A program made the position numbers and the translations under genes. A stretch of 33,476 nucleotides of DNA from Opitutus sp. GAS368 (GTDB lineage: Bacteria > Verrucomicrobiota > Verrucomicrobiia > Opitutales > Opitutaceae). A model generated the notes under the pieces. That model was not told the DNA's origin. It saw only the letters and a program-made list of their open reading frames with translations, and did not search any database. Below are positions 18,333 to 33,476 of the stretch, in pieces. Every line of letters begins with the position of its first letter. Within the stretch, counting starts at the first letter, position 1. The DNA lies in assembly GCA_945859965.1 (NCBI GenBank), contig CAMAPG010000005.1, positions 1 to 33,476 on the forward strand, read 5' to 3'.

Positions 18333-18362
18333 TTGCTAATAAAAGTCAAACTTGCTAATAAA
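18333..18362. promoter_or_regulatory. Two direct repeats of TTGCTAATAAA (18333-18343 and 18352-18362), candidate operator
   Basis: Exact 11-bp repeat, 19 bp start to start, in the divergent IclR/TonB-receptor intergenic region; followed by TTGACA at 18370-18375. Confidence 0.55.
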
Positions 18363-18423
18363 TATTTCGTTGACACGTCATGGGGCGTTTCCGCATTCAG
18401 TAAATCGAAACCTCCGACTACCC

Positions 18424-20664
18424 ATGATCAATCCTACCCTTGTAACCGTTCGAAGGACCGCCCTCGCGGCGGCTTTGCTTGCCCTCGTCTCTTGCCTGCC
18501 GCTTTCCGCGCAAACCGCTGCCACCGGGTCGCCCGCGGCCCCGCGCGCTGCCGATAATTCCGATCGCATCGCACTGTCTCCGTTCCTGGTTTCGGACGAT
18601 CGCCAGGACGGGTATGTTGAACAGCAAACCATGGCTGGCAGCCGCTCGTCCAAAAATGTGATAGAGATTCCGAGCAGCGTGGTGATCGTGAATCGCGAGG
18701 CCATCGATGACCTCGGCGCCATCACGCCGGTGGAGGCGATCAATTTCGGTGTGAGCGGCGTCAGCCAGGGCACCACGTATTTCGATGCGGTGAATATCCG
18801 CGGTTTCGGCATCAGTTTTTTTCTCCGCAACGGGGTGACCAAGACGACGTTCAAGACCAGCCCGATGTACGATGTCGAGCGGATCGAGGTTATCAAGGGT
18901 CCGGCGGCCATGCTGCTCGGGAACAACGTCAATCTCGGCGGCTCCGTGAATCTCATCTCGCGTCGGGCGAGCGCGACTCAGTCCGGCGACCTTCAGCTCA
19001 CCCTTGCGGAAAACAACTACTACCGGGCCGCCGCGACTTTGTCGGGACCGGCGGTCAAATCGGAGGATTTTAAACTTAATTATCGGATTACGGCTGGCTA
19101 TCTCAAGGGTGACCGGGACAAGGAGATCCAGAATGAAGACGAGCGGTTCATCGGCGGCGCCGTCGACATGTATTTCGGCAGCAATACCAGCATCCTGGTG
19201 AACGGGTATGTGTTTCAGAACGACGGTTATCGCTACTGGGACGACTTCCTGGATCTTTCGACGGCCTTGGTCTACCCGGGCGCGGCGGGCGGCAAGGGCG
19301 CCCTGCGGTGGGGCAAGCTCAACCCGAACTCGACGCGTACCTTTTCACCGGGGCGCCGCAAGGACGTGCTCTGGGAAAACAATGACAGCTACCTCGATGT
19401 CACCCTCCTGACGAAGCTGACCAAAAACGGCAATCTGCGGCTCTTTTATTCGGTCACCGCGCTGCGGGATGAACGCGACATCATGCGGGGAATCACGCTG
19501 CAAACGAACAACTACATGCTCAACCGGCAGTTTCTGCCGTTTCACTTCGAGCAGGTGGACCACAATTTCCAGGTTGATTATCTTCATCAATGGGAGCTGA
19601 AGAACGTCAAATTCAACACGACCCTGGGCGGTGACGGCTATAACACCAACTATCGGCAGGCGCTGTCGGTCAACACCGCTCCCGCGCTCGACACCCGTAT
19701 GACCACATTTCCGGATGAGAATGCGTTTTTCGCCCAGCCCCTCTCCGGAGTCGGGTCGCCTTTCACCACCGACAACGAGCAAAAGCCGACCCAGTACACG
19801 TATTACGTCCAGGAGGATATCTCGTTCTGGCAGGACCGGGTCCGTCTGGTCGGCGGCCTGCGTTGGATCACTCCTGGCGGCACGAATCGAAACCGGATCA
19901 CCAACGTGGTGTCAGATCGCGTCAACGCCACCCTCCGCGTGCACAAGTACGGGGTGGTGGTGAAGGTGCTGCCCACCGTTTCGGTATATTACACCAATGC
20001 GATCAACATCCGCCAGCAGGTGGGCTTCGTGGATCTCAATAGAGGAGGCGACCAGCTCGTTCCGCAGAAAAACGCCGAAGGCACCCTCGATGAAATCGGT
20101 GCCAAGTTTAACCAGAAACTGTCCGACAGACTGAGCGTCTTCGGCACCGTGGCTTATTATAAAATGTCGCTGAGCAACATCCGGATCAACCACCAGTTCC
20201 CCGACGGTTCGTTCGGCCAGATCCAGAACGCCCGCGATTCCTCCAAGGGCTGGGAATTTGATTCCGGCCTGAGGGCCAATGTGGGCGACGGCCATGCGGA
20301 CGTGATCTTCACGTACGCCAACGGGACCTCCGCCCCGGCGGCGGATTCGACCCTTCTGACCGACGGATTCGTGCCGATCAAGATCAGTGGAATCGCCAAG
20401 TATACGTGGACCAGCGGGCCGCTGAAAGGGTTCATGCTGGGCGCGGCGGTCATGGACCAGTCGGACTCCCGGGCAGGTAACTATATGATCGATCGTCCGC
20501 TGTCCGGCAACGCGTTTGCCCGCTATCAGTGGAGCCGGTGGGCCGTGCAAGTGAACGTGGAAAATCTGACCAACGCCCGCTATATCAGCGGCCTGATTAC
20601 CCAGGGCCTGGTGGAAGGCTCCGAACCGCGGCAGATCCGGATGGATGTTCGTTACCGCTGGTAG
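18424..20664 (+). CDS. TonB-dependent outer-membrane receptor
   Basis: Signal-like MINPTLVTVRRTALAAALLALVSCLPLSAQ; plug motif IPSSVVIVNREAIDDLGAITPVEAINFGVSGVSQG...IRGFGISFFLRNGV...VERIEVIKGPAAMLLG; C-terminal aromatic residue (DVRYRW). Confidence 0.93.
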   Translation: MINPTLVTVRRTALAAALLALVSCLPLSAQTAATGSPAAPRAADNSDRIALSPFLVSDDRQDGYVEQQTMAGSRSSKNVIEIPSSVVIVNREAIDDLGAITPVEAINFGVSGVSQGTTYFDAVNIRGFGISFFLRNGVTKTTFKTSPMYDVERIEVIKGPAAMLLGNNVNLGGSVNLISRRASATQSGDLQLTLAENNYYRAAATLSGPAVKSEDFKLNYRITAGYLKGDRDKEIQNEDERFIGGAVDMYFGSNTSILVNGYVFQNDGYRYWDDFLDLSTALVYPGAAGGKGALRWGKLNPNSTRTFSPGRRKDVLWENNDSYLDVTLLTKLTKNGNLRLFYSVTALRDERDIMRGITLQTNNYMLNRQFLPFHFEQVDHNFQVDYLHQWELKNVKFNTTLGGDGYNTNYRQALSVNTAPALDTRMTTFPDENAFFAQPLSGVGSPFTTDNEQKPTQYTYYVQEDISFWQDRVRLVGGLRWITPGGTNRNRITNVVSDRVNATLRVHKYGVVVKVLPTVSVYYTNAINIRQQVGFVDLNRGGDQLVPQKNAEGTLDEIGAKFNQKLSDRLSVFGTVAYYKMSLSNIRINHQFPDGSFGQIQNARDSSKGWEFDSGLRANVGDGHADVIFTYANGTSAPAADSTLLTDGFVPIKISGIAKYTWTSGPLKGFMLGAAVMDQSDSRAGNYMIDRPLSGNAFARYQWSRWAVQVNVENLTNARYISGLITQGLVEGSEPRQIRMDVRYRW

Positions 20665-20803: not shown

Positions 20804-22690
20804 GTGAGATCGACCCCGTTACCGCCCGCTCCGGCGCACCCGGACTGCTCGCAGGTTATTTACCGGGGCGGCCCTCTCCCGGGGTGGCTGGCGGCAGGCG
20901 CCCTGGTTTTTTTAACCGTGATGATGGCGGGTGCTGCCAGCGGGCAGGCGGCGGGAACTGAGACGAAATTCATCGAACGTGAGATGGTTCTGGACCGCCG
21001 CTATCTCAACTTGCCGGTGAAGGCGGATGCCCCGCGGCGCACGGTGAACATCATGGTCGGCGGCGAAATCGTGCGGGCCTTCGAGATCGAACTCGCGGGG
21101 GACCAGCCCGATTTCTGGGCTTTTACCGACGTGAGCGAATGGCGCGGCCAAAAGGCGACCCTCCGGCTGGATCCGATCGGCCGGCTCGCCAAACCCGAGC
21201 TGCAGGAGGATTCCGCGAAGCGGCGGCCTTCGCCGCAGGCGCTCGATGCGCTGCGTCTGTCCGATGAAATCGAGGACGCTGCGACCTTGTATCGCGAGCC
21301 CCTGCGCCCGCAGTTTCACTACACCACGCCGCGCGGGTGGTTGAACGACCCGCACGGGCTGATTTTTCACGAGGGCGAATATCATCTGTTCTACCAGCTG
21401 CAGCCATTCAGCATGAAGTCGCTCAACAGCGACAAGCACTGGGGGCACGCGGTCAGCCGCGATCTGGTCCACTGGCAGGAACTGCCGGTCGCGCTCCGGC
21501 CCGGTCGCGACGGGGGAATGTGGTCGGGTGGTTCGCTGATCGACAAAAAGAACACGGCGGGATTTCAGCAGGGCCCCGAACCGGCCATGCTCTTGTTTTA
21601 TACCGCGACGGGCCGCTCCGCGATGAATCCGAAGGCCGCCGAGCCTGGCGACTTCGTGCAGGGCATTGCGTATAGCAACGACCGCGGCCGTTCCTGGACG
21701 AAGTATTCCGGGAATCCCATTCTCCAGAACATCACTCCGCTCAACCGTGACCCGCATGTCTTCTGGCACGAGCCGTCGAAAAAATGGATCATGGTCCTTT
21801 ATGTGGGCGAGCCCATCTCGAATCCGGGCAATCACTACAAGGCCCGGATCCTGAGCTCGGAGAACCTGAAGGACTGGGTTTCCGAAAGCAGCATCGACGG
21901 ATTATTCGACTGCCCTGTCCTGTTCGAGCTGCCGCTGGACGGAAAGGCCACGGACACGCGCTGGATCATCCATTGCGCGAACATGAAGTACCGGGTCGGC
22001 CGCTTCGACGGGAAGACGTTCACGCCCGAAACCGACTTCATCGACTCGCACAAGGCCAACGTCAGCGAATCCGCCTACGCGGCCCAGATCTTCCGGAATC
22101 TCGACGAGCCGCGCACGGTCCAGCTAGCCTGGCTTTACGATGAAACCCCCGGGACGCGCCAGATGATGACGTTTCCCTGCGAGCTGACCCTCGTGACCAC
22201 GGCGGCCGGACCACGGCTGCGCTGGCAGCCGGTACGGGAGATCGAGCGATTGTATGGCCCGGCTCGTTCCTGGCGCGATTTGCCTATAACCCCGGACGGG
22301 CAGCTAGTGGCGCGCGCCCACGGCCGGCATCTTGAAATCAAGGCGCGGATCCAGGTTGGAAAAGCCACGGAGGTGCAGATCGCCGTTCGCGGCATTCCAA
22401 TCGTCCTCCATCCCAAATCCAAACAACTGACGGCGTTCGGTTACGCCGTTCCGCTCACACTGAAGGATAACCTGCTGCGGATCCGGATCCTCGTCGATGA
22501 GACCTCGCTGGAGATCTTTGCCGATGACGGGTTTGTCTACCTGCCGCTGAGCGTTCCCCTGGTGCCGGAGGATGACACCGTCAGCCTGAGCGCGCGGGGG
22601 GGCCAGGCCATGGCGGAGACTTTGGATATCGTGGAATTGAAATCGATCTGGCCGGAACCTGTAAACGCGCCGGCCACGGCGCAGCGCTGA
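20804..22690 (+). CDS. GH32 family glycoside hydrolase (levanase/fructosidase-like), secreted
   Basis: FHYTTPRGWLNDPHGLIFHEGEYHLFYQLQPFSMKS...HWGHAVSRDLVHWQELPVAL; RDP motif LNRDPHVFW; EC-like motif LFDCPVLFELP; C-terminal TSLEIFADDGFVYLPL. Confidence 0.92.
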   Translation: MRSTPLPPAPAHPDCSQVIYRGGPLPGWLAAGALVFLTVMMAGAASGQAAGTETKFIEREMVLDRRYLNLPVKADAPRRTVNIMVGGEIVRAFEIELAGDQPDFWAFTDVSEWRGQKATLRLDPIGRLAKPELQEDSAKRRPSPQALDALRLSDEIEDAATLYREPLRPQFHYTTPRGWLNDPHGLIFHEGEYHLFYQLQPFSMKSLNSDKHWGHAVSRDLVHWQELPVALRPGRDGGMWSGGSLIDKKNTAGFQQGPEPAMLLFYTATGRSAMNPKAAEPGDFVQGIAYSNDRGRSWTKYSGNPILQNITPLNRDPHVFWHEPSKKWIMVLYVGEPISNPGNHYKARILSSENLKDWVSESSIDGLFDCPVLFELPLDGKATDTRWIIHCANMKYRVGRFDGKTFTPETDFIDSHKANVSESAYAAQIFRNLDEPRTVQLAWLYDETPGTRQMMTFPCELTLVTTAAGPRLRWQPVREIERLYGPARSWRDLPITPDGQLVARAHGRHLEIKARIQVGKATEVQIAVRGIPIVLHPKSKQLTAFGYAVPLTLKDNLLRIRILVDETSLEIFADDGFVYLPLSVPLVPEDDTVSLSARGGQAMAETLDIVELKSIWPEPVNAPATAQR

Positions 22691-22691
22691 C

Positions 22692-24026
22692 ATGCCCACA
22701 CTCTTCCTCTATGGTTTTATCCTATGGACGGTGCTCCATTTCGGCACCGTGCTGGTGGCGGCGGCATCCCCCGCGCCGGCCGGAGAGGCCGCGCGCAACG
22801 CGCCTGCGACAGTGAAGGTGGTGGCCAACAACCATCCGGAGGTGCTCCTCGCCGATCCCCGCGTCCACCTGGACTTCGGCCCGGAGCGCCTGATTCTTGA
22901 GGACAACCTGCATCCGAGCATGCTGGTGACACGCAGCGGCACGATTGTCGTCCAATCCAAGGAGATGGTGGTTTCCCGCAACGACGGGGCGAGTTGGACC
23001 CGCTTGCCGCCGACCGGGCTCAGTCTCGAAGGCGGCGTCCTCCAGCTCCGCGACGGCTCGATTCTCGCCCTTGATACCTTTGTCCGGCCCGGAGCGCAGA
23101 GAGACACCGGGCAGGGGCAGCTTTATTTTTCGACCGACGACTGGCAGACCCTGCAAGGACCGGTGAACATCACCTTCGACCTGCCCGGGGTGAATTTCCA
23201 CGGATCCACGGATGATGGTGGCCGGCCGCACGCCGCCGTGCGCCTGCACCGCCGGATCGTCGAACTGCCCAACGGGGACCTGTTGACCACGATCTACGGC
23301 TGGTTCACGGGCGATGACGAGCCGGTGGGTTACATGTCCACCATGCATAAAACGCGCGTGGTCCTGGTGCGCTCGACCAATCGGGGCCGGCACTGGACGA
23401 TGGTCTCGACCGTGGCGGCGGACCGCACCGCGGGCACCGAAGGTTTCAACGAAGCGGTCCTGATCCGGCTGAACCAAGGCCCGCGGGCCGGCCGGCTGAT
23501 CTGCCAGATGCGGACCGGCCGGGAGTTGCGCGAGGCGACATCCGATGACGAAGGTCGCACGTGGAGCCTGCCGTCTCCGCGGGTTTATGCGGAGCTCGAT
23601 GTCTACCGCACCGAAAAATGGGTGGAAATGTTCCGCGGCGTGAAGGACAAGCACGGCCGGCTGATCGAGAACAATCCCGACGAACTCATCGGCGCGGTGG
23701 TGGATCCGGATTTGCAGGAACTGCGCAGCGGGGTGCTGGTCGCGTCGTTTGGAATCCGCGTGCCGCCGCGGGCCTGCTGGCCGCGCGCCGGGCATCCATG
23801 GAACGGCAATTATTTCGCCTTGAGCCTCGATCAAGGAACGACCTGGAGTCACGTCGTGCGGCTCACCTCTGGCGTGCTGACCGCGCATTACACCGCGATC
23901 GAAGAAATGCCGGATGCGAATCGGATCCTGTATGCCTACGACCTTGGCGACTGGAGCAGCGGGCGCGGCCGCTCGGTATTCGGACGGTTCGTGCAAATCA
24001 AGATTGACGGCAAAGCAACCCAATGA
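22692..24026 (+). CDS. BNR/sialidase-fold protein, paralog 1
   Basis: 444 aa with Asp-box-like motifs SRNDGASW, STNRGRHW, SDDEGRTW, SLDQGTTW; GTEGFNEAVL and GRLICQMRTGRELREATSDDEGRTW resemble the sialidase core. Confidence 0.85.
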   Translation: MPTLFLYGFILWTVLHFGTVLVAAASPAPAGEAARNAPATVKVVANNHPEVLLADPRVHLDFGPERLILEDNLHPSMLVTRSGTIVVQSKEMVVSRNDGASWTRLPPTGLSLEGGVLQLRDGSILALDTFVRPGAQRDTGQGQLYFSTDDWQTLQGPVNITFDLPGVNFHGSTDDGGRPHAAVRLHRRIVELPNGDLLTTIYGWFTGDDEPVGYMSTMHKTRVVLVRSTNRGRHWTMVSTVAADRTAGTEGFNEAVLIRLNQGPRAGRLICQMRTGRELREATSDDEGRTWSLPSPRVYAELDVYRTEKWVEMFRGVKDKHGRLIENNPDELIGAVVDPDLQELRSGVLVASFGIRVPPRACWPRAGHPWNGNYFALSLDQGTTWSHVVRLTSGVLTAHYTAIEEMPDANRILYAYDLGDWSSGRGRSVFGRFVQIKIDGKATQ

Positions 24027-24122
24027 GCGCGCCCTCCGCCCCAGGGCACCGCGCTGACCGTATTCGAAACCCAACCCCTCCTGCTTATAAAAATCCCCCG
24101 TTGGCCCCTCCCATTCCTGGCG

Positions 24123-25469
24123 TTGATCTCCGGATGCGCATCGCTGCTGGCCGCGCCCTCCCGGCCGCCGGGCGAGATCGATCCCTATAATCCGCCGACG
24201 CTGGATGTCGTCGCGAACAATCATCCCGAGGTGATTCTCGCCGATCCGCGGGTGAAGGTGAGCTTTGGTCCGGAGCAGTTGGTGATCAAAGGCGGTTTGC
24301 AGCCCTCCATGGTGATCACCAAGACCGGTGCGCTGGTGGTGCAATCGCAGTTGCCGGAACATTCCATCCCGGTCCGCCGCCAATCCTCGCACTGGGCGTT
24401 TGGCACGGTGATCTCGCGGGACAGCGGCGCAACGTGGACCCGGATTCCGCTGAAGGCCGGTGAAAATGGCCTCAATATGGAAGGCGGGGCCATTCAATTG
24501 CGCGACGGCTCGCTGCTGGCGCTCGACACCTATGTGGTCCCGGGCGAGCGGCCGGGCGAAGGGGTGGGGGAACGTTATGTTTCGACGGATGACTGGCAGA
24601 CATTGCAGGGGCCGGAGAAGATCACGCTGAATCTTCCCGGGGTTAATTTCCTGTCGTCGAAGGACGACATGGGGCGGCCGCATAACGCGGTGCGGTTTCA
24701 CCGCCGGATCCTGGAACTGCCCAACGGCGACTTGCTGACCACGCTTTATGGCTGGTTCGAGGGTGACAATGAGCCGGCGGGGTACATGCCGACGATGAAA
24801 AAGACGCGCGTTGTGCTCATGCGCTCGACCAATCGCGGCCGGCATTGGGTTCTCGTTTCCACCGTGGCGGTCGATCCCAAGGTGGGGACGGAAGGCTTCA
24901 ACGAAGCGGTGCTGGGACGCGTCAGCTCCGGTCCGCAGGCCGGCCGGCTGATCTGCAAGATGCGCACCGGGCGCGAGCAGCGCGAGGCGACTTCGGATGA
25001 CGAGGGCCGCACCTGGACGCCCGCCTATCCGCGGGTCTATGCCGACATCGATGTCTACCGGACGGAAAAATGGGCGGAGATGTTCCGCGGGGCAAAGGAC
25101 AAGAAAGGCCAGCCGATCGACAATAATCCGATCGAGCTCATCGGTGCGGTGGTAGACCCGGATCTGCTCGAGCTGCGCAGCGGCGTGATGGTCGCCACGT
25201 TCGGGGTACGGGTGCCGCCGCGCGCCAATTGGCCTCGGGCCGAGCATCCTTGGAACGGAAGCTACGTCGCGGTCAGCCTCGACCACGGCGCGACCTGGAG
25301 CCATGTCGTGCGGATGACCTCCGGGGTCCTGACGACGCATTACACCGCGATCGAAGAAATGCCGCAGGACAACCGGATCTACTTTGTCTATGATCTCGGC
25401 GACTGGCGCAGTGGCCAGGGCCGTTCCACCTACGGGCGCACGTTACAGATCAAGGTCGGGGCTCGGTGA
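24123..25469 (+). CDS. BNR/sialidase-fold protein, paralog 2 (start uncertain; no ATG at a plausible position)
   Basis: 448 aa from TTG 24123; Asp-box-like motifs SRDSGATW, STNRGRHW, SDDEGRTW, SLDHGATW; conserved block RVPPRANWPRAEHPWNGSY. The frame is open back to the TGA at 24024-24026. Confidence 0.83.
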   Translation: MISGCASLLAAPSRPPGEIDPYNPPTLDVVANNHPEVILADPRVKVSFGPEQLVIKGGLQPSMVITKTGALVVQSQLPEHSIPVRRQSSHWAFGTVISRDSGATWTRIPLKAGENGLNMEGGAIQLRDGSLLALDTYVVPGERPGEGVGERYVSTDDWQTLQGPEKITLNLPGVNFLSSKDDMGRPHNAVRFHRRILELPNGDLLTTLYGWFEGDNEPAGYMPTMKKTRVVLMRSTNRGRHWVLVSTVAVDPKVGTEGFNEAVLGRVSSGPQAGRLICKMRTGREQREATSDDEGRTWTPAYPRVYADIDVYRTEKWAEMFRGAKDKKGQPIDNNPIELIGAVVDPDLLELRSGVMVATFGVRVPPRANWPRAEHPWNGSYVAVSLDHGATWSHVVRMTSGVLTTHYTAIEEMPQDNRIYFVYDLGDWRSGQGRSTYGRTLQIKVGAR

Positions 25470-25489
25470 GTCCATCGCGAATCTCCATC

Positions 25490-27329
25490 ATGAACACCCG
25501 CCGTGATTTCATCCGCGCCGGCGCCCTCGGAGCCACGGCTTCCAGTCTCCTGCCGGCCCTGCTTCACGGCGCCCCCACCGCGGCCTCGTCGTCGGCCGGT
25601 CCCGGCCCGGCGCCGAAACGGTCGCTGCAGGCTCACCGCAACCTCTTCAACGGAGACTCCTGCGTCTTCTTTTATAATCCCGAGATCTACCAGCCGGAGG
25701 ATTTTACCCTCGTGCCCGAACCGGTGGATCCCGCCGCCGCACCCAACGTCCGTGCTCCCGCGCGTCCCGCAGTGCTCAAAGGAGGCCCATTCAAGGCGAA
25801 GACCATCCACCGTTACGTCGACACGCTCGCCGACAACGGCATCGACACCTTCCTCGTCAACGCCAATGCCAGTCGGGCCTGGTACCCGAGCAAAGTCATC
25901 CCGACGATCCTCGACGGGTATCAACGGGGTGACCGCGAGTTTTTCCGCGGTCACGCGATCTGCCAGGGTCTCACCGACAAGGCGGGAGAGGAGAAATTCA
26001 TCGACCGGATCATGTCGTTCATGAACCTCTATCAGGACCTGCTCGACGCAAAGGTCGACTGGCTCGCCGAAGCGGCCAAGGCCTGCCGCGCCCGCCAGAT
26101 TTCGCCCTGGGTCAGTATCCGGATGAATGATTTTCACGGGCACAAGAATATCGAAGGCAGCTTCTTCAATGTGCCGCTGCTGAAGGATCCGGCGATGCGC
26201 CTGCAGCGCAGCGCGTATTCGCCGACGATGCACGATCCGGCGTACCGGAACGGGCTGAACTATGAGAAGGCCGAGGTGCGCGCGCTCATGTTTGCCCAGA
26301 TCAAGGAGGTCGTGGAGGACTACGACTACGAGGGCCTCGAACTCGACTGGCTCCGCAATCCGCTCTGCTGCGAGCCCAACGCGACTCCGGCCACGATTGC
26401 GATGATGAGCGATTGGATCCGCGAAGTGCGCGAACTCACCCAGCGCCGCTCCCGCCGTACCGGCCGGCCTTATCCCCTGGGCCTCCGGATTCCGGGCAAG
26501 CTCGAGACCATGAAGAGCATCGGCCTCGACGTCGCCACGCTCTGCCGCGAAGGGACGCTCGATTTTGTCAGCCCCTCGAATTTCTGGTGCACGTCGTGGG
26601 AGATGCCGCATGACGACCTGCGCCGGGCGCTCGGTGACAGCGTGACCATTTACGGCGTGGTGGAGGACGGGGCGAACTTCCTGCCCGCGCGGTCGCCGGA
26701 GCACGGCCTGACCCAGAACATCCGTTACATCTCGGCCAGCCGGGAAATGCTGCATGCCAATGCGGCCGGCAAGCACGCGCTCGGCATCGATGGCATTGAA
26801 TGGTACAATTTCTATTGCACCGACCCCAACCGGCTCCCCGGCTTCACCTCGGATTACACGCCGCTGCGTGACATCCACCGGCCCGAATTCCTGCGCGGCC
26901 GGCCGAAGCACTACACGTTTTCCACCGGGGGGCGATTACGTGATTCATCCGCCGTTCGAAATCACTCCCCAGCTGCCCGTGACGCTCGACCCGGCGCGCA
27001 GTCACCCCTTTCGCCTGCCCATGGCTGCGGAACCCGCTGACACGGGCCTGGAACTTGTCATCCAGATCGTACTCAAGGCGGGTGTGACGTTTACGGCGCT
27101 GCCGGTTTCCTTCAATGGCTGCTGGCCGCGTCTCGAACACGCCGCCACCGACCGCCTGCTGTTCCCCTGCGGTTCGCTGACCCACCACACGCCGGAGCAT
27201 CGTGGCTACGACTTCCGTTTTCCTATCGCGCTGGTGCGTGAGGGGTGGAACGAGGTCGTGGTCGAAAACGGTGGAGCCCATCCGGTCACCATCGCCAGCA
27301 TCGATCTGGCCATCCGGCCCGCAGTCTAG
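25490..27329 (+). pseudogene. Tat-type secreted TIM-barrel-like (putative glycoside hydrolase) protein with an apparent frameshift at a G6 run
   Basis: MNTRRDFIRAGALGATASSLLPALLHGA...; reads to RPKHYTFSTGG then leaves frame at 26927-26932. The alternate frame continues GGDYVIHPPFEITPQLPVTL...NEVVVENGGAHPVTIASIDLAIRPAV to TAG at 27329. As written, the first ORF ends at 27040. Confidence 0.78.
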
Positions 27330-27381
27330 CGTTTCCCGTTACCAGTCCCGCGCCCGACTTTTGGTTAAAGATCCGAATTCC

Positions 27382-29964
27382 ATGAAGACATCCTTTCTCC
27401 TTCGCTGCCTGATTGTCTCCGTCCTGCACTGGCAGGCGCTGGCCTCGACCGTCCCACCGGCATCAGGCCAGCCCGCGCCGCCCCGGCTCGAAGACCTGAG
27501 GCAAAAACTCACCACGGCCGAGGACATCGGCGTTCGGTACGTAAACGATGCTCTGACCGACCGTTCGCTGTATGCTGTGCCCCTCCTTGTCCACACCGCG
27601 CTTGCCGATCCGGCGAACTGCGGCCGGCGGGCGGGAGGCTGGACGGTGAAAGGGGGGATCGCGGACGCGTACACGTATGCGGTGCTGCGCGATCTTCCCA
27701 TGCTGGGCAACCGCTCGCAGCTGGCGCAGCTTTCGTTCCGCAGCACGCAAACGGGCGTGGCGCGCGGCGCGCATGGCCTGGTGGAGATGCGCCTTTGTCG
27801 CGGCACGACCTCGGATGACCTGCCCCTGCGTATCCGGGTCGAAGATGGCCGGTTCTACATCCTTTTGCTCAATGGTGACATGCTCCTGGCCGGCGATCGC
27901 GAGAGGCCCGCGTTCACGATGTCGGCCGACGTGGTTTACACCCTGACCGTTCTGCTTTTTGAGAAAGGGGTGTATGCGCGTTTGACCGGCGCAAATGTGC
28001 CCGGCGGCGCCCTGGAACTCAGCGTTTCCGACCGCTATCGGTTTATTCCTGGCCGCCCGGGTTTTGGGCTCCGGCCCAACGCGCAGGCCACCGGCGGCGA
28101 ACTCGCGGTCTTCGACTGGAGTGTGACCGCAGTCGCTCCGGCGAAGAACCGCCGGCTGGCCGCGATCGGCGATTCGATCACCGCAGGTTCGGACCGGGAG
28201 CCCGAGGCGGATAGCTACGTGGCCGTCGCCACGCGCGCCCTCGGCCAGGCCCTTGTTTTCAACACCGGCAGTGGCGGCTCAACCACGGCGCTCGATCTCG
28301 GGCGTTTCCCTTACGAAATTGCCCCGTTCCGACCCGAGATTGTCTGGATCGAAGGCGGCACGAATGACATTGGGGCGGGTATTTCCGCGGACGTGGTTTT
28401 CCAGAACATGCAGCGCCAGGCCGAGCTCGTCACCTGGGGCGGGACGGCAGTATTTTCCACCGTGCCGCCACGCGGGCTTCCGACCGCCGCGCATTATGAC
28501 GAACTGGCACGACTCAACCGCCTCATCCGGGAAAGCGGACGGCCCGTGGTGGACCGTCATGCGCTGGTCAGCGACCCAGAGGATCCGCGGCAAATTCGCG
28601 CAGAATATCGCCACGCTGACGGCATTCATATCACGCGCCCCGGCCACCTCCGGATCGGTGAGGAGGCTGCTCGTCTCTTTCGCACGCTGCCTGCGGTCCC
28701 GCCAACGGTCGCCAATCTTCCCGAAGCACTCGTCGCGGATCCCCGCGTGCGCCTGACCTTCGGCGACGAACGACGGGTGATCGAAGGTGGCCTGCAACCG
28801 TCCATGCTGATCACCCGGAGCGGAACGATGATCGTGCAGTCGCATTTGCCCAACAAATCGTTTCCCAGCAAGCGCATCGCTTTTCACAGTGCGATGGCGA
28901 CCGTGGTTTCGCGGGATGGCGGAGCGACCTGGACCGGCATTCCGCTGAAAGCCGGCGAGAACGGCCTCAACATGGAAGGGGGCGCGGTCCATCTACGTGA
29001 CGGCAGCATTCTGGCACTCGACACGTATGTCACACCTGGGACCCAGCTAGGGGCGGGCGCCGGACACCTGTATGTTTCGAAGGACGAATGGCGCACCCTC
29101 CAAGGACCGATCGAGATCACTTTCGACCTGCCCGGGATCAACTTCGACGCGTCCACCGGCGACGATGGCTCCCGGCACATCGCGGCGCGATTGCACCGCC
29201 GGATCCTGGAGCTCCCGAACGGTGATTTGCTGACGACGCTCTACGGTTGGTTCAAGGGCGATGAGGAGCCCGTCGGCTACATGCCCACGATGAAAAAATC
29301 GCGGGTCGTCCTGCTGCGCTCGACCAATCGGGGCCGGCACTGGACCATGGTCTCGACCGTGGCCGTCGACCGCGCGGTGGGGACCGAAGGCTTCAACGAA
29401 GCCACGCTGGCGCGCCTCCCCGCCGGACCTCATGCCGGCCGGTTGATCTGCCAGATGCGGACGGGCCAGGAACAGCGGGAGACGATCTCGGACGATGAGG
29501 GCCGGACCTGGCGGCCGGCGTACCCGCGGGTGTATGCGGACCTGGATGTTTATCGCACGGAAAAGTGGGTGGAGATGTTTCGGGGGGTGAAGGACAAGCA
29601 CGGTCGGCCCATTGTGGACAATCCGGTCGAGCTCATCGGTGCCGTAGTAGACCCGGATCTGCTCGTGCTGCGCAGTGGCGTACTTGTCGCCTCGTTCGGG
29701 GTCCGGGTGCCACCGCGAGCCTGCTGGCCGCGCGCCGAGCATCCGTGGAACGGCGTTTACCTCGCGGTGAGCCTCGACCAGGGCAAGACGTGGACTCATG
29801 TCGTGCGGATGACGTCCGGGGTGCTGACGACGCATTACACCGCGATCGAGGAGACGCCGCAGGACAACCAGATTTTCTTTGCCCATGATCTCGGCGACTG
29901 GAGCAGTGGCCGCGGCCGTTCGACGCATGGGCGGACAGTGCAAATTGCGATCGAGGCCAAGTAA
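27382..29964 (+). CDS. Multidomain secreted protein: N-terminal jelly-roll-like region, SGNH/GDSL hydrolase, C-terminal BNR/sialidase-fold domain (paralog 3)
   Basis: SGNH blocks RLAAIGDSITAG, IEGGTNDIGAG, HADGIHITRPGH; then ALVADPRVRLTFGDERRVIEGGLQPSMLITRSG onward is colinear with the stand-alone BNR paralogs. ATG 27382 gives a signal peptide (MKTSFLLRCLIVSVLHWQALA). Confidence 0.88.
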   Translation: MKTSFLLRCLIVSVLHWQALASTVPPASGQPAPPRLEDLRQKLTTAEDIGVRYVNDALTDRSLYAVPLLVHTALADPANCGRRAGGWTVKGGIADAYTYAVLRDLPMLGNRSQLAQLSFRSTQTGVARGAHGLVEMRLCRGTTSDDLPLRIRVEDGRFYILLLNGDMLLAGDRERPAFTMSADVVYTLTVLLFEKGVYARLTGANVPGGALELSVSDRYRFIPGRPGFGLRPNAQATGGELAVFDWSVTAVAPAKNRRLAAIGDSITAGSDREPEADSYVAVATRALGQALVFNTGSGGSTTALDLGRFPYEIAPFRPEIVWIEGGTNDIGAGISADVVFQNMQRQAELVTWGGTAVFSTVPPRGLPTAAHYDELARLNRLIRESGRPVVDRHALVSDPEDPRQIRAEYRHADGIHITRPGHLRIGEEAARLFRTLPAVPPTVANLPEALVADPRVRLTFGDERRVIEGGLQPSMLITRSGTMIVQSHLPNKSFPSKRIAFHSAMATVVSRDGGATWTGIPLKAGENGLNMEGGAVHLRDGSILALDTYVTPGTQLGAGAGHLYVSKDEWRTLQGPIEITFDLPGINFDASTGDDGSRHIAARLHRRILELPNGDLLTTLYGWFKGDEEPVGYMPTMKKSRVVLLRSTNRGRHWTMVSTVAVDRAVGTEGFNEATLARLPAGPHAGRLICQMRTGQEQRETISDDEGRTWRPAYPRVYADLDVYRTEKWVEMFRGVKDKHGRPIVDNPVELIGAVVDPDLLVLRSGVLVASFGVRVPPRACWPRAEHPWNGVYLAVSLDQGKTWTHVVRMTSGVLTTHYTAIEETPQDNQIFFAHDLGDWSSGRGRSTHGRTVQIAIEAK

Positions 29965-30006
29965 CCGCTTTGAGTCGTACAGGCGCTCGTTTTAATCAGC
30001 TTCTTT

Positions 30007-30945
30007 ATGTCCCCGTTTTTGTCCCGGTTATCCCTTCTGATCGTGCTGGGCCTCCTGACGACGTCGCTGTCGGCGCAGGAATTGAATGCATTCTGGCAGG
30101 CGACGCGCGAGCGGCTGGCGCTCGAGCCCATGGAAGCGCAGGTCGAGGCCGTGGCTGAAGCGCTGCCCTACAAGAAATTCAAAGTCACGCTGCGGGGCCT
30201 TGATGGCGTGCGCTTCCGTGCCTTGCTGGCACTCCCCATCAAGGGCGAAGTCGCCCAGGCGACACCGTGGCCGGTCATCGTCACCGTCCCGGGTTACGGG
30301 GGCTTGCAACAGGGCATCGTGCTCGGCGAGTGCCAGCGCGGTTATGCGATTCTCCAGGTGTTTCCGCGTTCCCAGGGCGAGTCGACCGAACTTTGGAAAA
30401 TCGACGGTCCCGACAAGCTGACGTGGCGCCTCGATAAACCGGAGGGCGCCTATTATCAGGGGGCATATGCCGACGTGATCCGCGCGATCGACTTTGTCGT
30501 GACGCGGGCCGATCTGGACGCCCAGCGCATCGCGATCATGGGCACGAGCCAGGGAGGGGGGATTGCCCTCGCGGTCGGTGCGCTCGATTCACGCATCAAG
30601 GCCGTGGTCGCGCACGTGCCATTTCTCTGCGATTTCCGACTCGCCGCGAAAACGCCGGATTCGCTGGTGAAAAAGCTGCTCGATGCCGCCGGGCGCAACG
30701 ACGAGGCGGCGCTGGCCACACTGGATTATTTCGATCCCGCGCGGCTCGCCCCGCGATTGCGTGTACCGGTGCTGATGAGCGCGGGCGGACAGGACAAGAT
30801 CTGTCCACAGGCGGCCATCCAGTCGGTCTACGATCGGTTGCCAGGCAACAAGGGCCTGATGATTTACCCCGATCTGCCGCACACGTCCTGCCTGGATTTC
30901 TACAATCTCGGCTGGCCCTGGCTCGACCTGCATTTCCGCAATTAA
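30007..30945 (+). CDS. Alpha/beta hydrolase, acetyl xylan esterase / cephalosporin-C deacetylase (CE7-like), secreted
   Basis: 312 aa; signal MSPFLSRLSLLIVLGLLTTSLSAQ; VTVPGYGG, IAIMGTSQGGGIAL, LMSAGGQDKICP, YPDLPHTS. Confidence 0.85.
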   Translation: MSPFLSRLSLLIVLGLLTTSLSAQELNAFWQATRERLALEPMEAQVEAVAEALPYKKFKVTLRGLDGVRFRALLALPIKGEVAQATPWPVIVTVPGYGGLQQGIVLGECQRGYAILQVFPRSQGESTELWKIDGPDKLTWRLDKPEGAYYQGAYADVIRAIDFVVTRADLDAQRIAIMGTSQGGGIALAVGALDSRIKAVVAHVPFLCDFRLAAKTPDSLVKKLLDAAGRNDEAALATLDYFDPARLAPRLRVPVLMSAGGQDKICPQAAIQSVYDRLPGNKGLMIYPDLPHTSCLDFYNLGWPWLDLHFRN

Positions 30946-30950
30946 TTCGC

Positions 30951-32165
30951 ATGAAAATCACCGATGTCCGCACGACCCTGCTCACGGGTCCCTCCACCAA
31001 CGATCCGTTCCTGCGCGAAGCCCGCAAGCTGCGCAGCGCGGCCTTTATCGAGATCTTTACCGATCAGGGCACGATCGGGATCGGCGAGACGTATGGCGGT
31101 TATTTCTGTCCGGAGGCGGTTCCGGCGATCGTCGATTTTTTCAAACCGATCCTTGTCGGCCAGACCGTGGATGACATTCCGGAGCTCTGGCGTCGGATGT
31201 ATCACTGCGGCAATTTCTGGGGGCGCGTTGGCTTGGGTGCGATAGTGCTGAATGGCATCGAGGCGGCGCTCTGGGATTTGAAAGGCAAGCTGCTGGACAA
31301 ACCCGTCCATGAACTGCTCGGCGGCGCGAAACACAAGCGCCTGCCCTGTTATGCGACCGGCGGGCCGGCCAATTATCCGAAGGACAAGCTCGCGCAGAAG
31401 ATGGATTTTTATTTCTCCCTCGGTTTCCGCGGACTGAAAGTGGCGACCGGCAGCTGCCTGGACGGCGGAATCTGGTACACCCCCAAAGAGCCAAAGGAAG
31501 CGGCGGACTTCGAAGGCGATAAGATCGCCTTCATGCGCAAACACGGGGGGCCGGACGCCTGGCTCATGCTGGATGGCCACATGGGCAACAGTCCCACGAT
31601 CACCTGGACCGTCGAAACCGCCCTCGCAGTCGCGAAGGTGGCGGAGCCCTACAATTTGTTCTTCTTCGAGGAGCCACTGCACTATACCGATCCCTGGGGC
31701 TATGCCGAACTCTGCCGCGGGACCACCACGCCGATCGCCGGAGGCGAATGCCTGACTGCGACGTATGAATGGAAAGTGTTCGCTGAGCAGGATGCCTTCG
31801 ACATCGGCCAGCCGGATGCCTCCTTCACGGGTGGACTCGGCGAATTCATGGCCGTCGCCAAGATGATGGAAGCCCGCGGCCGAAAAGTGGCGACCCACGC
31901 CTGGGGCGCCGGTGGTTCGTTCATGCAAAATCTCCACGCCGGTTTTGCGGCGCCGAACACCTGCATCCTTGAGATCGCGCCGGCTTATGCCGGGCTGCAC
32001 TCCGAGGTGATCGACGGTGGCTTTATCATGAAGGATGGCTATGCGGTTCCGCCGGACCGTCCGGGTCTCGGTATCGTGCTCACCGATGAAATCAAGCGCC
32101 GCTATCCCTTCATCCCTGGCAGTGGCGAGTTCAACAGCGTCCCGGGCAAAATCCTTAAGGACTAG
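30951..32165 (+). CDS. Mandelate racemase/muconate lactonizing (enolase) superfamily enzyme, probable acid-sugar dehydratase
   Basis: 404 aa; MKITDVRTTLLTGP, NGIEAALWDLKGKLLDKPVHELLGG, LMLDGHMGN, FFEEPLHY, IAGGECLT, VATHAWGAGG. Confidence 0.85.
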   Translation: MKITDVRTTLLTGPSTNDPFLREARKLRSAAFIEIFTDQGTIGIGETYGGYFCPEAVPAIVDFFKPILVGQTVDDIPELWRRMYHCGNFWGRVGLGAIVLNGIEAALWDLKGKLLDKPVHELLGGAKHKRLPCYATGGPANYPKDKLAQKMDFYFSLGFRGLKVATGSCLDGGIWYTPKEPKEAADFEGDKIAFMRKHGGPDAWLMLDGHMGNSPTITWTVETALAVAKVAEPYNLFFFEEPLHYTDPWGYAELCRGTTTPIAGGECLTATYEWKVFAEQDAFDIGQPDASFTGGLGEFMAVAKMMEARGRKVATHAWGAGGSFMQNLHAGFAAPNTCILEIAPAYAGLHSEVIDGGFIMKDGYAVPPDRPGLGIVLTDEIKRRYPFIPGSGEFNSVPGKILKD

Positions 32166-32225
32166 TAAACACGGTCAGGCCTCTTCCCCCATCGCACTGA
32201 ATCGAGATCGTCGGCGTTTTTATTT

Positions 32226-33476
32226 ATGACCATCAAAGCTCCTGTCCCCGCGTTGGTTTTGTTTTTGTTCCTTGCCGGCCTGGCTCTGGCCACGCCAGCG
32301 CCGGTGGCGCCGAATGCCCCGGAAATCCTGCGTGCGGACCCGCGGGTCCGCCTGACCTTCGGTGCTGACGGAAAAGCGATCGAGGGCGGATTGCAGCCCA
32401 GCATGGTGATCACGCGCACCGGTGCGATCATCGTGCAGTCGCAGGTTCCGGATAAACCGTTTCCCAGCAAACGCATCGCCTACCACAGCGCGATGGAAAC
32501 GGTGATCTCGCGCGACCAGGGCGTAAATTGGACGCGTATTCCGCTCACGCCGGGCGAAAACGGTTTGGACATGGAAGGCGGCGCCGTGCAGCTGCGCGAT
32601 GGGTCCATCCTCGCGCTCGATACGTTTGTCACTCCGGGTCCGCAACCCGGCACGGGTGCGGGGCAGCTCTATTTTTCGACGGACGACTGGCGGACGCTGC
32701 AGGGTCCCGTGGACATCACCTTCGATCTGCCGGAGGTGAATTTTCATGGTTCCACCGATGATGGCGGCACCCCGCATGCGGCGGTCCGCCTGCATCGCCG
32801 CATTCTTGAGCTGCCGAATGGCGATTTGCTGACGACGCTCTACGGTTGGTTCAAGGGCGATGACGAATCGACGGGCTACATGCCCACCATGCACAAGACG
32901 CGCTCGGTGTTGGTGCGTTCGACCAATCAGGGCAGGCACTGGACCATGGTATCGACGATCGCGGTTGATCGCACCGTGGGCACCGAAGGTTTCGGTGAAC
33001 CGGTGCTGGTCCGGATAAACTCCGGAGCCCATGCAGGACGTTTGATCTGCCAGATGCGCACGGGACGCGAATTGCGCGAGGCGGTTTCGGATGACGAGGG
33101 CCGCACGTGGAGCAAGGCACAGCCGCGCGTCTACGCGGATCTCGATGTCTATCGCACCGAAAAGTGGGTGGAGATGTTCCGCGGGGTGAAGGACAAGCAC
33201 GGCCGTCCGATCGTGGATAATCCGGTCGAGCTCATCGGCGCAGTCGTAGATCCTGATCTGTTGGTGCTGCGCAGTGGCGTGCTCGTCGCATCGTTCGGGG
33301 TTCGCGTGCCGCCGCGGGCCTGCTGGCCGCGGGCCGAGCATCCCTGGAACGGCAATTACCTCGCCGTCAGTCTCGACCAAGGAAAAACCTGGAGCCATGT
33401 CGTGCGGATCACGTCCGGTATCCTGACGACGCACTACACCGCGATTGAAGAGACTCCACAGGACAATCAGATTTTT
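32226..33476 (+). CDS. BNR/sialidase-fold protein, paralog 4 (truncated by window end)
   Basis: MTIKAPVPALVLFLFLAGLALATPAPVAPNAPEILRADPRVRLTFGADGKAIEGGLQPSMVITRTGAIIVQSQ..., open to the window edge and colinear with paralogs 1-3. Confidence 0.88.
   Translation, partial: MTIKAPVPALVLFLFLAGLALATPAPVAPNAPEILRADPRVRLTFGADGKAIEGGLQPSMVITRTGAIIVQSQVPDKPFPSKRIAYHSAMETVISRDQGVNWTRIPLTPGENGLDMEGGAVQLRDGSILALDTFVTPGPQPGTGAGQLYFSTDDWRTLQGPVDITFDLPEVNFHGSTDDGGTPHAAVRLHRRILELPNGDLLTTLYGWFKGDDESTGYMPTMHKTRSVLVRSTNQGRHWTMVSTIAVDRTVGTEGFGEPVLVRINSGAHAGRLICQMRTGRELREAVSDDEGRTWSKAQPRVYADLDVYRTEKWVEMFRGVKDKHGRPIVDNPVELIGAVVDPDLLVLRSGVLVASFGVRVPPRACWPRAEHPWNGNYLAVSLDQGKTWSHVVRITSGILTTHYTAIEETPQDNQIF

Follow-up and report, generated by a model that had tools for sequence, protein, structure and literature searches.

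The roles of the active-site residues of GH33 sialidases have been reviewed (PMC4747158), and a GxGxG bulge in the inner strand of blade 3 is a signature of that family (PMC2716378). AmGH181, from Akkermansia (Verrucomicrobiota), is an exo-sialidase with Gln in place of one triad Arg and Gln in place of the Tyr (PMC10067855). Uncharacterised families have already been anticipated in the sialidase-fold superfamily (PMC2716378), and a planctomycete carries more than 80 annotated GH33/GH177 genes yet no NanA (PMC11929135). Here we analyse a family of Asp-box beta-propellers, four copies of which (A to D) lie on one 33,476-base contig (G000:C5; the whole stretch is called the window below) of a metagenome-assembled genome (MAG). 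This MAG comprises 3.0 Mb in 338 contigs, is 84% complete and, judged by named homologues, has its closest relatives in the Opitutaceae. Within the sialidase-fold superfamily this family stands apart as a distinct variant, and we lean toward the reading that its members are secreted, glycan-cleaving propellers that probably act on an acetylated acidic glycan of plants or algae and not on a common sialoside.

The propeller family and its relation to GH33

Open reading frames (ORFs) and alignment confirm the four homologous Asp-box propellers that the first-pass annotation had recognised by their motifs. Common to all four are ADPRV, (L/H)(Q/H)PSM, EGGxxxLRDGS, HRRI(L/V)ELPNGDLLTT, STN(R/Q)GRHW, GTEGF(N/G)E, MRTG, SDDEGRTW, HPWNG, and HYTAIEE. 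Overall the copies share 68-79% identity. Identity to copy B over whole sequences is about 70% (69-71%) in the alignment of the four, and pairwise identity over aligned codons is 71-79%; with E values of ~1e-193 to 1e-216 between copies, chance cannot account for the similarity. The ratio of nonsynonymous to synonymous substitution rates (dN/dS, NG86 method) is 0.11-0.20 between copies, indicating that all of them are under purifying selection and are maintained genes.

The AlphaFold (AF2) model of copy B is a six-bladed Asp-box propeller (predicted local distance difference test [pLDDT] 93, predicted TM-score [pTM] 0.92). Foldseek likewise recovers the fold of GH33, with 5hx0 as the top match followed by GH33 sialidases (E 1e-16 to 1e-10), and profile-profile alignment to FRIP-bearing GH33 sequences gives a probability of 98.6% (E 6e-16). 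A PDB sequence search with a single copy returned no match. The family profile did return matches, among them a weak one to 8axi (E 1.8e-4), which we take to be AmGH181. PF13088 (BNR_2) matches all 48 family members at E<=0.01 (best 1.6e-14), the window copies scoring 28-34 bits against a gathering cut-off of 31.4; an NCBIfam scan assigned no family.

A scan of 84,980 species genomes yielded 51 loci, ~40 of them close members; in a sample of 388 genomes of the phylum, the family is present at E<=1e-20 in only 8. Close members occur in Verrucomicrobiota, Planctomycetota, and Bacteroidota (Larkinella, Niabella, Pedobacter) and more distant ones in Acidobacteriota, a patchy spread over four phyla that is consistent with horizontal transfer. 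The homologues form one clade separate from GH33 (Shimodaira-Hasegawa-like approximate likelihood ratio test [SH-aLRT] 99), and a branch with 99 support has the clade on one side and GH33 on the other, in a quick tree with long branches whose deeper branching order is unsure. Judged from these sequences, the clade appears to share an ancestor with GH33 but to lie outside it, as an uncharacterised group. The tree puts the window copies in a 12-row clade (99) whose members come from Opitutaceae and from unnamed Verrucomicrobiota. The sister gene of copy B belongs to another MAG, Loclat_bin-15473, so most duplications predate that split.

Further members were found by tblastn in the window's own MAG, on contigs C145 (two), C216 (two), C192 (partial), and C86. 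These copies and the tree support of 99 uphold the first-pass view of an amplified clade distinct from GH33. Contig C192 (L137) begins inside a copy 94.5% identical in DNA to copy D at the window end, and its positions 1-1864 encode a propeller joined to a second SGNH domain, with the domain order reversed relative to copy C. This D/C192 pair is the most recent duplication (dS 0.24). Because the window contig and C192 are both cut inside this repeat, the array is probably longer than seen and under-assembled. C192 as a plain continuation of the window contig was rejected, as 28 mismatches over 505 bases point to another copy or a strain variant.

Active-site columns

We aligned six FRIP-bearing GH33-type sequences profile-profile with the 48-member family; residues carry copy B numbering, and family counts for five columns are given with their codons in Table 1. 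The F-R-I-P of GH33 aligns to G-L-Q-P, and the column of the first triad Arg is Leu in all four window copies. The first-pass claim that Arg has become Leu in every copy thus holds for the window but not for the family, in which 4 of 48 members have Arg in this column: L138 on contig C145 (3347-4819, - strand), a paralogue within the same MAG, and L052, L053, and L054 (GRQPYLF, CRQPFLF). E261 and R281 line up with Glu and Arg in the "NEC...MR" stretch of GH33. The column of the third triad Arg is W377/N378 in the family (W 36/48, N 44/47), with no Arg, and the blade-1 loop that houses the GH33 acid/base has no conserved Asp, in a loop alignment less certain than that of the strands. In place of GxGxG, the blade-3 inner strand reads R-L-H-R-R-I (R-x-H-R-R). 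Besides E261 and R281, the columns of E257, R194, E198, D215, Y221, and R229 are invariant (48/48), and E120 (47/48) and Q60 (44/48) are nearly so. Beyond the Glu, Arg, and Tyr kept from GH33, ~10 new polar residues at the starts of blade strands are invariant across four phyla, and HRR, MRTGR, HPWNG, and HYxAxEE form a signature of the clade.

How telling is the missing FRIP, from which the first-pass annotation had argued against a sialidase? The Asp-box propellers found in the window MAG amount to 45 distinct ORFs, and in a motif search none of them has (F/Y)RIP at the start of blade 1 (three partial ORFs lack this blade); this rules out FRIP loss as a mark of this clade. Further, since AmGH181 is an exo-sialidase with an altered triad, one missing triad Arg does not exclude sialidase activity. 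The argument therefore fails in that form: the missing FRIP Arg alone tells little, and it is the combined losses and the gene context that carry weight. That the third Arg and the acid/base Asp are lost as well is, together with that context, stronger evidence against an ordinary sialidase. With the first Arg, the third Arg, the Asp, and GxGxG all absent, an "exo-alpha-sialidase" label is unjustified, as had been suspected.

The window MAG has 46-49 PF13088 matches in its 3.0 Mb, and the 37 relatives searched have 0-20. Other tandem BNR_2 arrays lie on its contigs C76, C89, C319, and others (L071-L100, L131, L141); the CAWPNLTVLPDG type is an example from the array on C76.

Cleavage would probably occur in the same funnel as in GH33, with Y407 and E261 as the putative nucleophilic pair and with R281 helping to bind an acidic group. 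The remainder of the pocket would be rebuilt: Leu, with the conserved Gln after it, takes the place of the first Arg and Trp/Asn that of the third, and the blade-5 Arg R363 and the blade-3 H-R-R motif (193-195) would be new elements. By its position, R363 could substitute for the third triad Arg, and the invariant acids E120, E257, D345, and D347 might take over from the missing acid/base Asp.

The same columns bear on two other readings. A true sialidase acting on Neu5Ac, Kdn, or a modified nonulosonate might have a rearranged Arg set, as in GH181, and bind the carboxylate through Args of other blades (R363, R191/R194) or through Q60. The activity of AmGH181 with Gln for one triad Arg (PMC10067855), the retained Tyr, Glu, and second Arg, the extra conserved Args in blades 3 and 5, and the one subclade with Arg in the first-Arg column all fit this explanation; the loss of two triad positions and of the Asp acid/base column does not, and with the gene context described below we consider it unlikely. 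A noncatalytic, lectin-like glycan-binding propeller would likewise be compatible with losing the canonical acid/base Asp together with two Args, and with copy A, which lacks ~17 residues after strand 2 of blade 1, in the loop carrying the acid/base Asp in GH33. However, the invariant Glu, Arg, and Tyr, the polar residues conserved at strand starts, and the fusion to an SGNH domain with intact motifs make a purely binding role very improbable.

Gene neighbourhood and substrate

The right part of the window encodes, in order, an IclR-like regulator, the TonB-dependent receptor-like protein, the GH32-like protein, propellers A and B, a frameshifted twin-arginine translocation (TAT)-signal gene, the SGNH-propeller C, an AXE1 esterase, an MR/MLE enzyme, and propeller D (Table 1). 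The SGNH motifs of copy C are intact (GDSI, GTND, DGIH), and SGNH-propeller fusions exist in two orientations (copy C and C192). Recurrent neighbours of the family are AXE1, the MR/MLE enzyme, a 2-hydroxyacid dehydrogenase, a second, longer BNR type, and a NANM-like Kelch protein; the MR/MLE and 2-hydroxyacid dehydrogenase pair stands beside the family in Verrucomicrobiota, Bacteroidota, and Acidobacteriota. An MR/MLE orthologue (63-89% identity) is found in 14 of 20 carrier genomes, the window's own included. Its gene lies <=~3.3 kb from a BNR_2 gene in 5 of 7 checked and is duplicated along with the propellers on C145. The named solved relatives of the enzyme are mostly sugar-acid dehydratases. 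NanE was not found in the window MAG and was above the cut-off, marginally, in 1 of 15 carriers, and no NanA equivalog scored above the cut-off in 15 genomes.

Table 1. Features of the right part of the window and selected codons of copy B
Feature	Position	Strand	Remarks
TonB-dependent receptor-like outer-membrane protein	18352..20664	+	Named from the sequence; in several loci, homologues adjoin family members
GH32-like secreted protein, upstream of copy A	20804..22690	+	Homologue also adjoins a family gene in L015
Copy A: secreted Asp-box beta-propeller (PF13088-like), 444 aa	22692..24026	+	
Copy B: propeller, AlphaFold query, 448 aa from TTG	24123..25469	+	
Leu59 codon of copy B, at GH33 FRIP Arg column	24297..24299	+	Family: L 41/48, R 4/48, other 3
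Glu261 of copy B, at GH33 catalytic Glu	24903..24905	+	48/48
Arg281 of copy B, at second GH33 triad Arg	24963..24965	+	48/48
Arg363 of copy B, end of blade-5 strand 2	25209..25211	+	44/47 Arg, 3 Lys
Tyr407 of copy B, at GH33 nucleophile Tyr	25341..25343	+	45/46
TAT-signal, TIM-barrel-like protein	25466..27329	+	Fold guessed, no Pfam match
Copy C: signal peptide, N-terminal domain, SGNH/GDSL esterase, then propeller; 860 aa	27382..29964	+	
AXE1-family acetyl esterase	30007..30945	+	Recurrent neighbour
MR/MLE (enolase-superfamily) sugar-acid dehydratase-like enzyme	30951..32165	+	Conserved partner
Copy D: propeller	32226..33476	+	Cut by contig end

Taken with the undetected NanE and NanA, the SGNH fusion, the acetylesterase, the sugar-acid dehydratase, and the 2-hydroxyacid dehydrogenase point to an acetylated glycan that yields a sugar acid. 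The SGNH and AXE1 esterases would probably strip acetyl groups from the same glycan that the propellers cleave, and the MR/MLE dehydratase, with the 2-hydroxyacid dehydrogenase in related loci, would process the derived sugar acid. That the substrate is something other than sialic acid, raised as a possibility in the first-pass annotation, is likely; combined losses and gene context speak for it, and FRIP loss alone is insufficient. The dehydratase and dehydrogenase context, and the lack of above-cut-off matches to Nan genes in the window MAG and in most carriers, also count against the rearranged sialidase considered above. More tentatively, and with some doubt, we propose that the propellers are a new family of glycoside hydrolases or lyases within the sialidase clan, with Tyr/Glu attack on a non-nonulosonic sugar, a rebuilt pocket, a dedicated acetylesterase/sugar-acid dehydratase pathway, and horizontal spread over four phyla.

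The sugar-acid dehydratase would also be at home beside a polysaccharide lyase, or another non-sialidase activity, that acts on a uronic-acid polymer in the same funnel with Tyr as base. Other sialidase-like propellers, such as rhamnose-glucuronate lyases and GH93 exo-arabinanases, provide precedent, and the family profile weakly matches the exo-arabinanase 3a71 (E 0.003) and the rhamnose-glucuronate lyase 7esk (E 0.17). The 50 best fold matches are 5hx0 and sialidases and include neither of these, and we judge this reading quite unlikely.

Several points weigh against an acetylated acidic glycan as the substrate of secreted propellers. Close relatives with biochemical study number none, neighbourhoods vary, many homologues stand alone, and the window MAG is only 84% complete. 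Bacteroidota can use an alternative sialic acid route, and the absence of NanE there is not conclusive. The NANM-like Kelch protein adjoins the family in 4 loci, a weak pointer to a sialic-acid-like sugar and a further point for a rearranged sialidase; this cyclically permuted mutarotase-like protein scores far below the mutarotase cut-offs. It is encoded directly downstream of family genes in L007 (2712-3890) and also in L030, L036, and L041.

The longer BNR partner family (YRHLHPADLI, EGPTDAPIEMPDGS) is conserved beside the propeller family in L014, L041 (6016-7872), L046, and L048. Its model is of moderate quality (pLDDT 73), and a fold search returned 5hx0 and sialidases again, adding no function. 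Within the window, the reading frame of copy B stays open as far upstream as 24027 and has a possible lipobox (ISGC). Relative to its intact homologue in L024, the TAT-signal gene is frameshifted near 26920-26930 (frames 25490-26932, then 26919-27326), either by a real mutation or by an assembly error.

Comparison with known sialidase-fold families

Bacteria of the Planctomycetota-Verrucomicrobiota-Chlamydiota (PVC) group have dozens of sialidase-fold genes labelled exo-alpha-sialidase, in some organisms although no catabolic route for sialic acid can be recognised. A subfamily retaining only the Tyr, the Glu, and one Arg would reveal the residues that determine substrate choice in the clan, and would be a warning against ecological inferences of sialic acid use drawn purely from annotation. 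The PVC PF13088 BNR_2 "sialidases" belong to the same superfamily and are expanded and FRIP-less in this MAG; the window clade is a minority subfamily among them.

The best fold match to copy B, 5hx0 (Dfer_1899, an uncharacterised protein of Dyadobacter; E 1.1e-16), is only 17-19% identical to the propeller family and is instead 31% identical to the longer BNR partner; we found nothing useful in the literature on Dfer_1899 or on PF13088. GH181, represented by the inverting sialidase AmGH181 (PMC10067855), is likewise a verrucomicrobial Asp-box propeller with an altered Arg triad, and in both families His precedes the Tyr/Gln position. However, GH181 has Gln at that position, whereas the window family has Tyr (45/46, as His-Tyr), and the invariant Asp five residues before the Gln of GH181 is missing from the window family (VLTTHY). 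The carbohydrate-binding module-like domain of GH181 was not seen in the window family. The retaining sialidases of GH33 (e.g., P. gingivalis PG_0352 and that of M. viridifaciens) have the same six-bladed Asp-box propeller, and their Tyr, Glu, and second Arg align with those of the window family. In contrast to GH33, this family lacks the FRIP Arg, the third Arg, the Asp acid/base column, and the blade-3 GxGxG, and it forms a separate clade.

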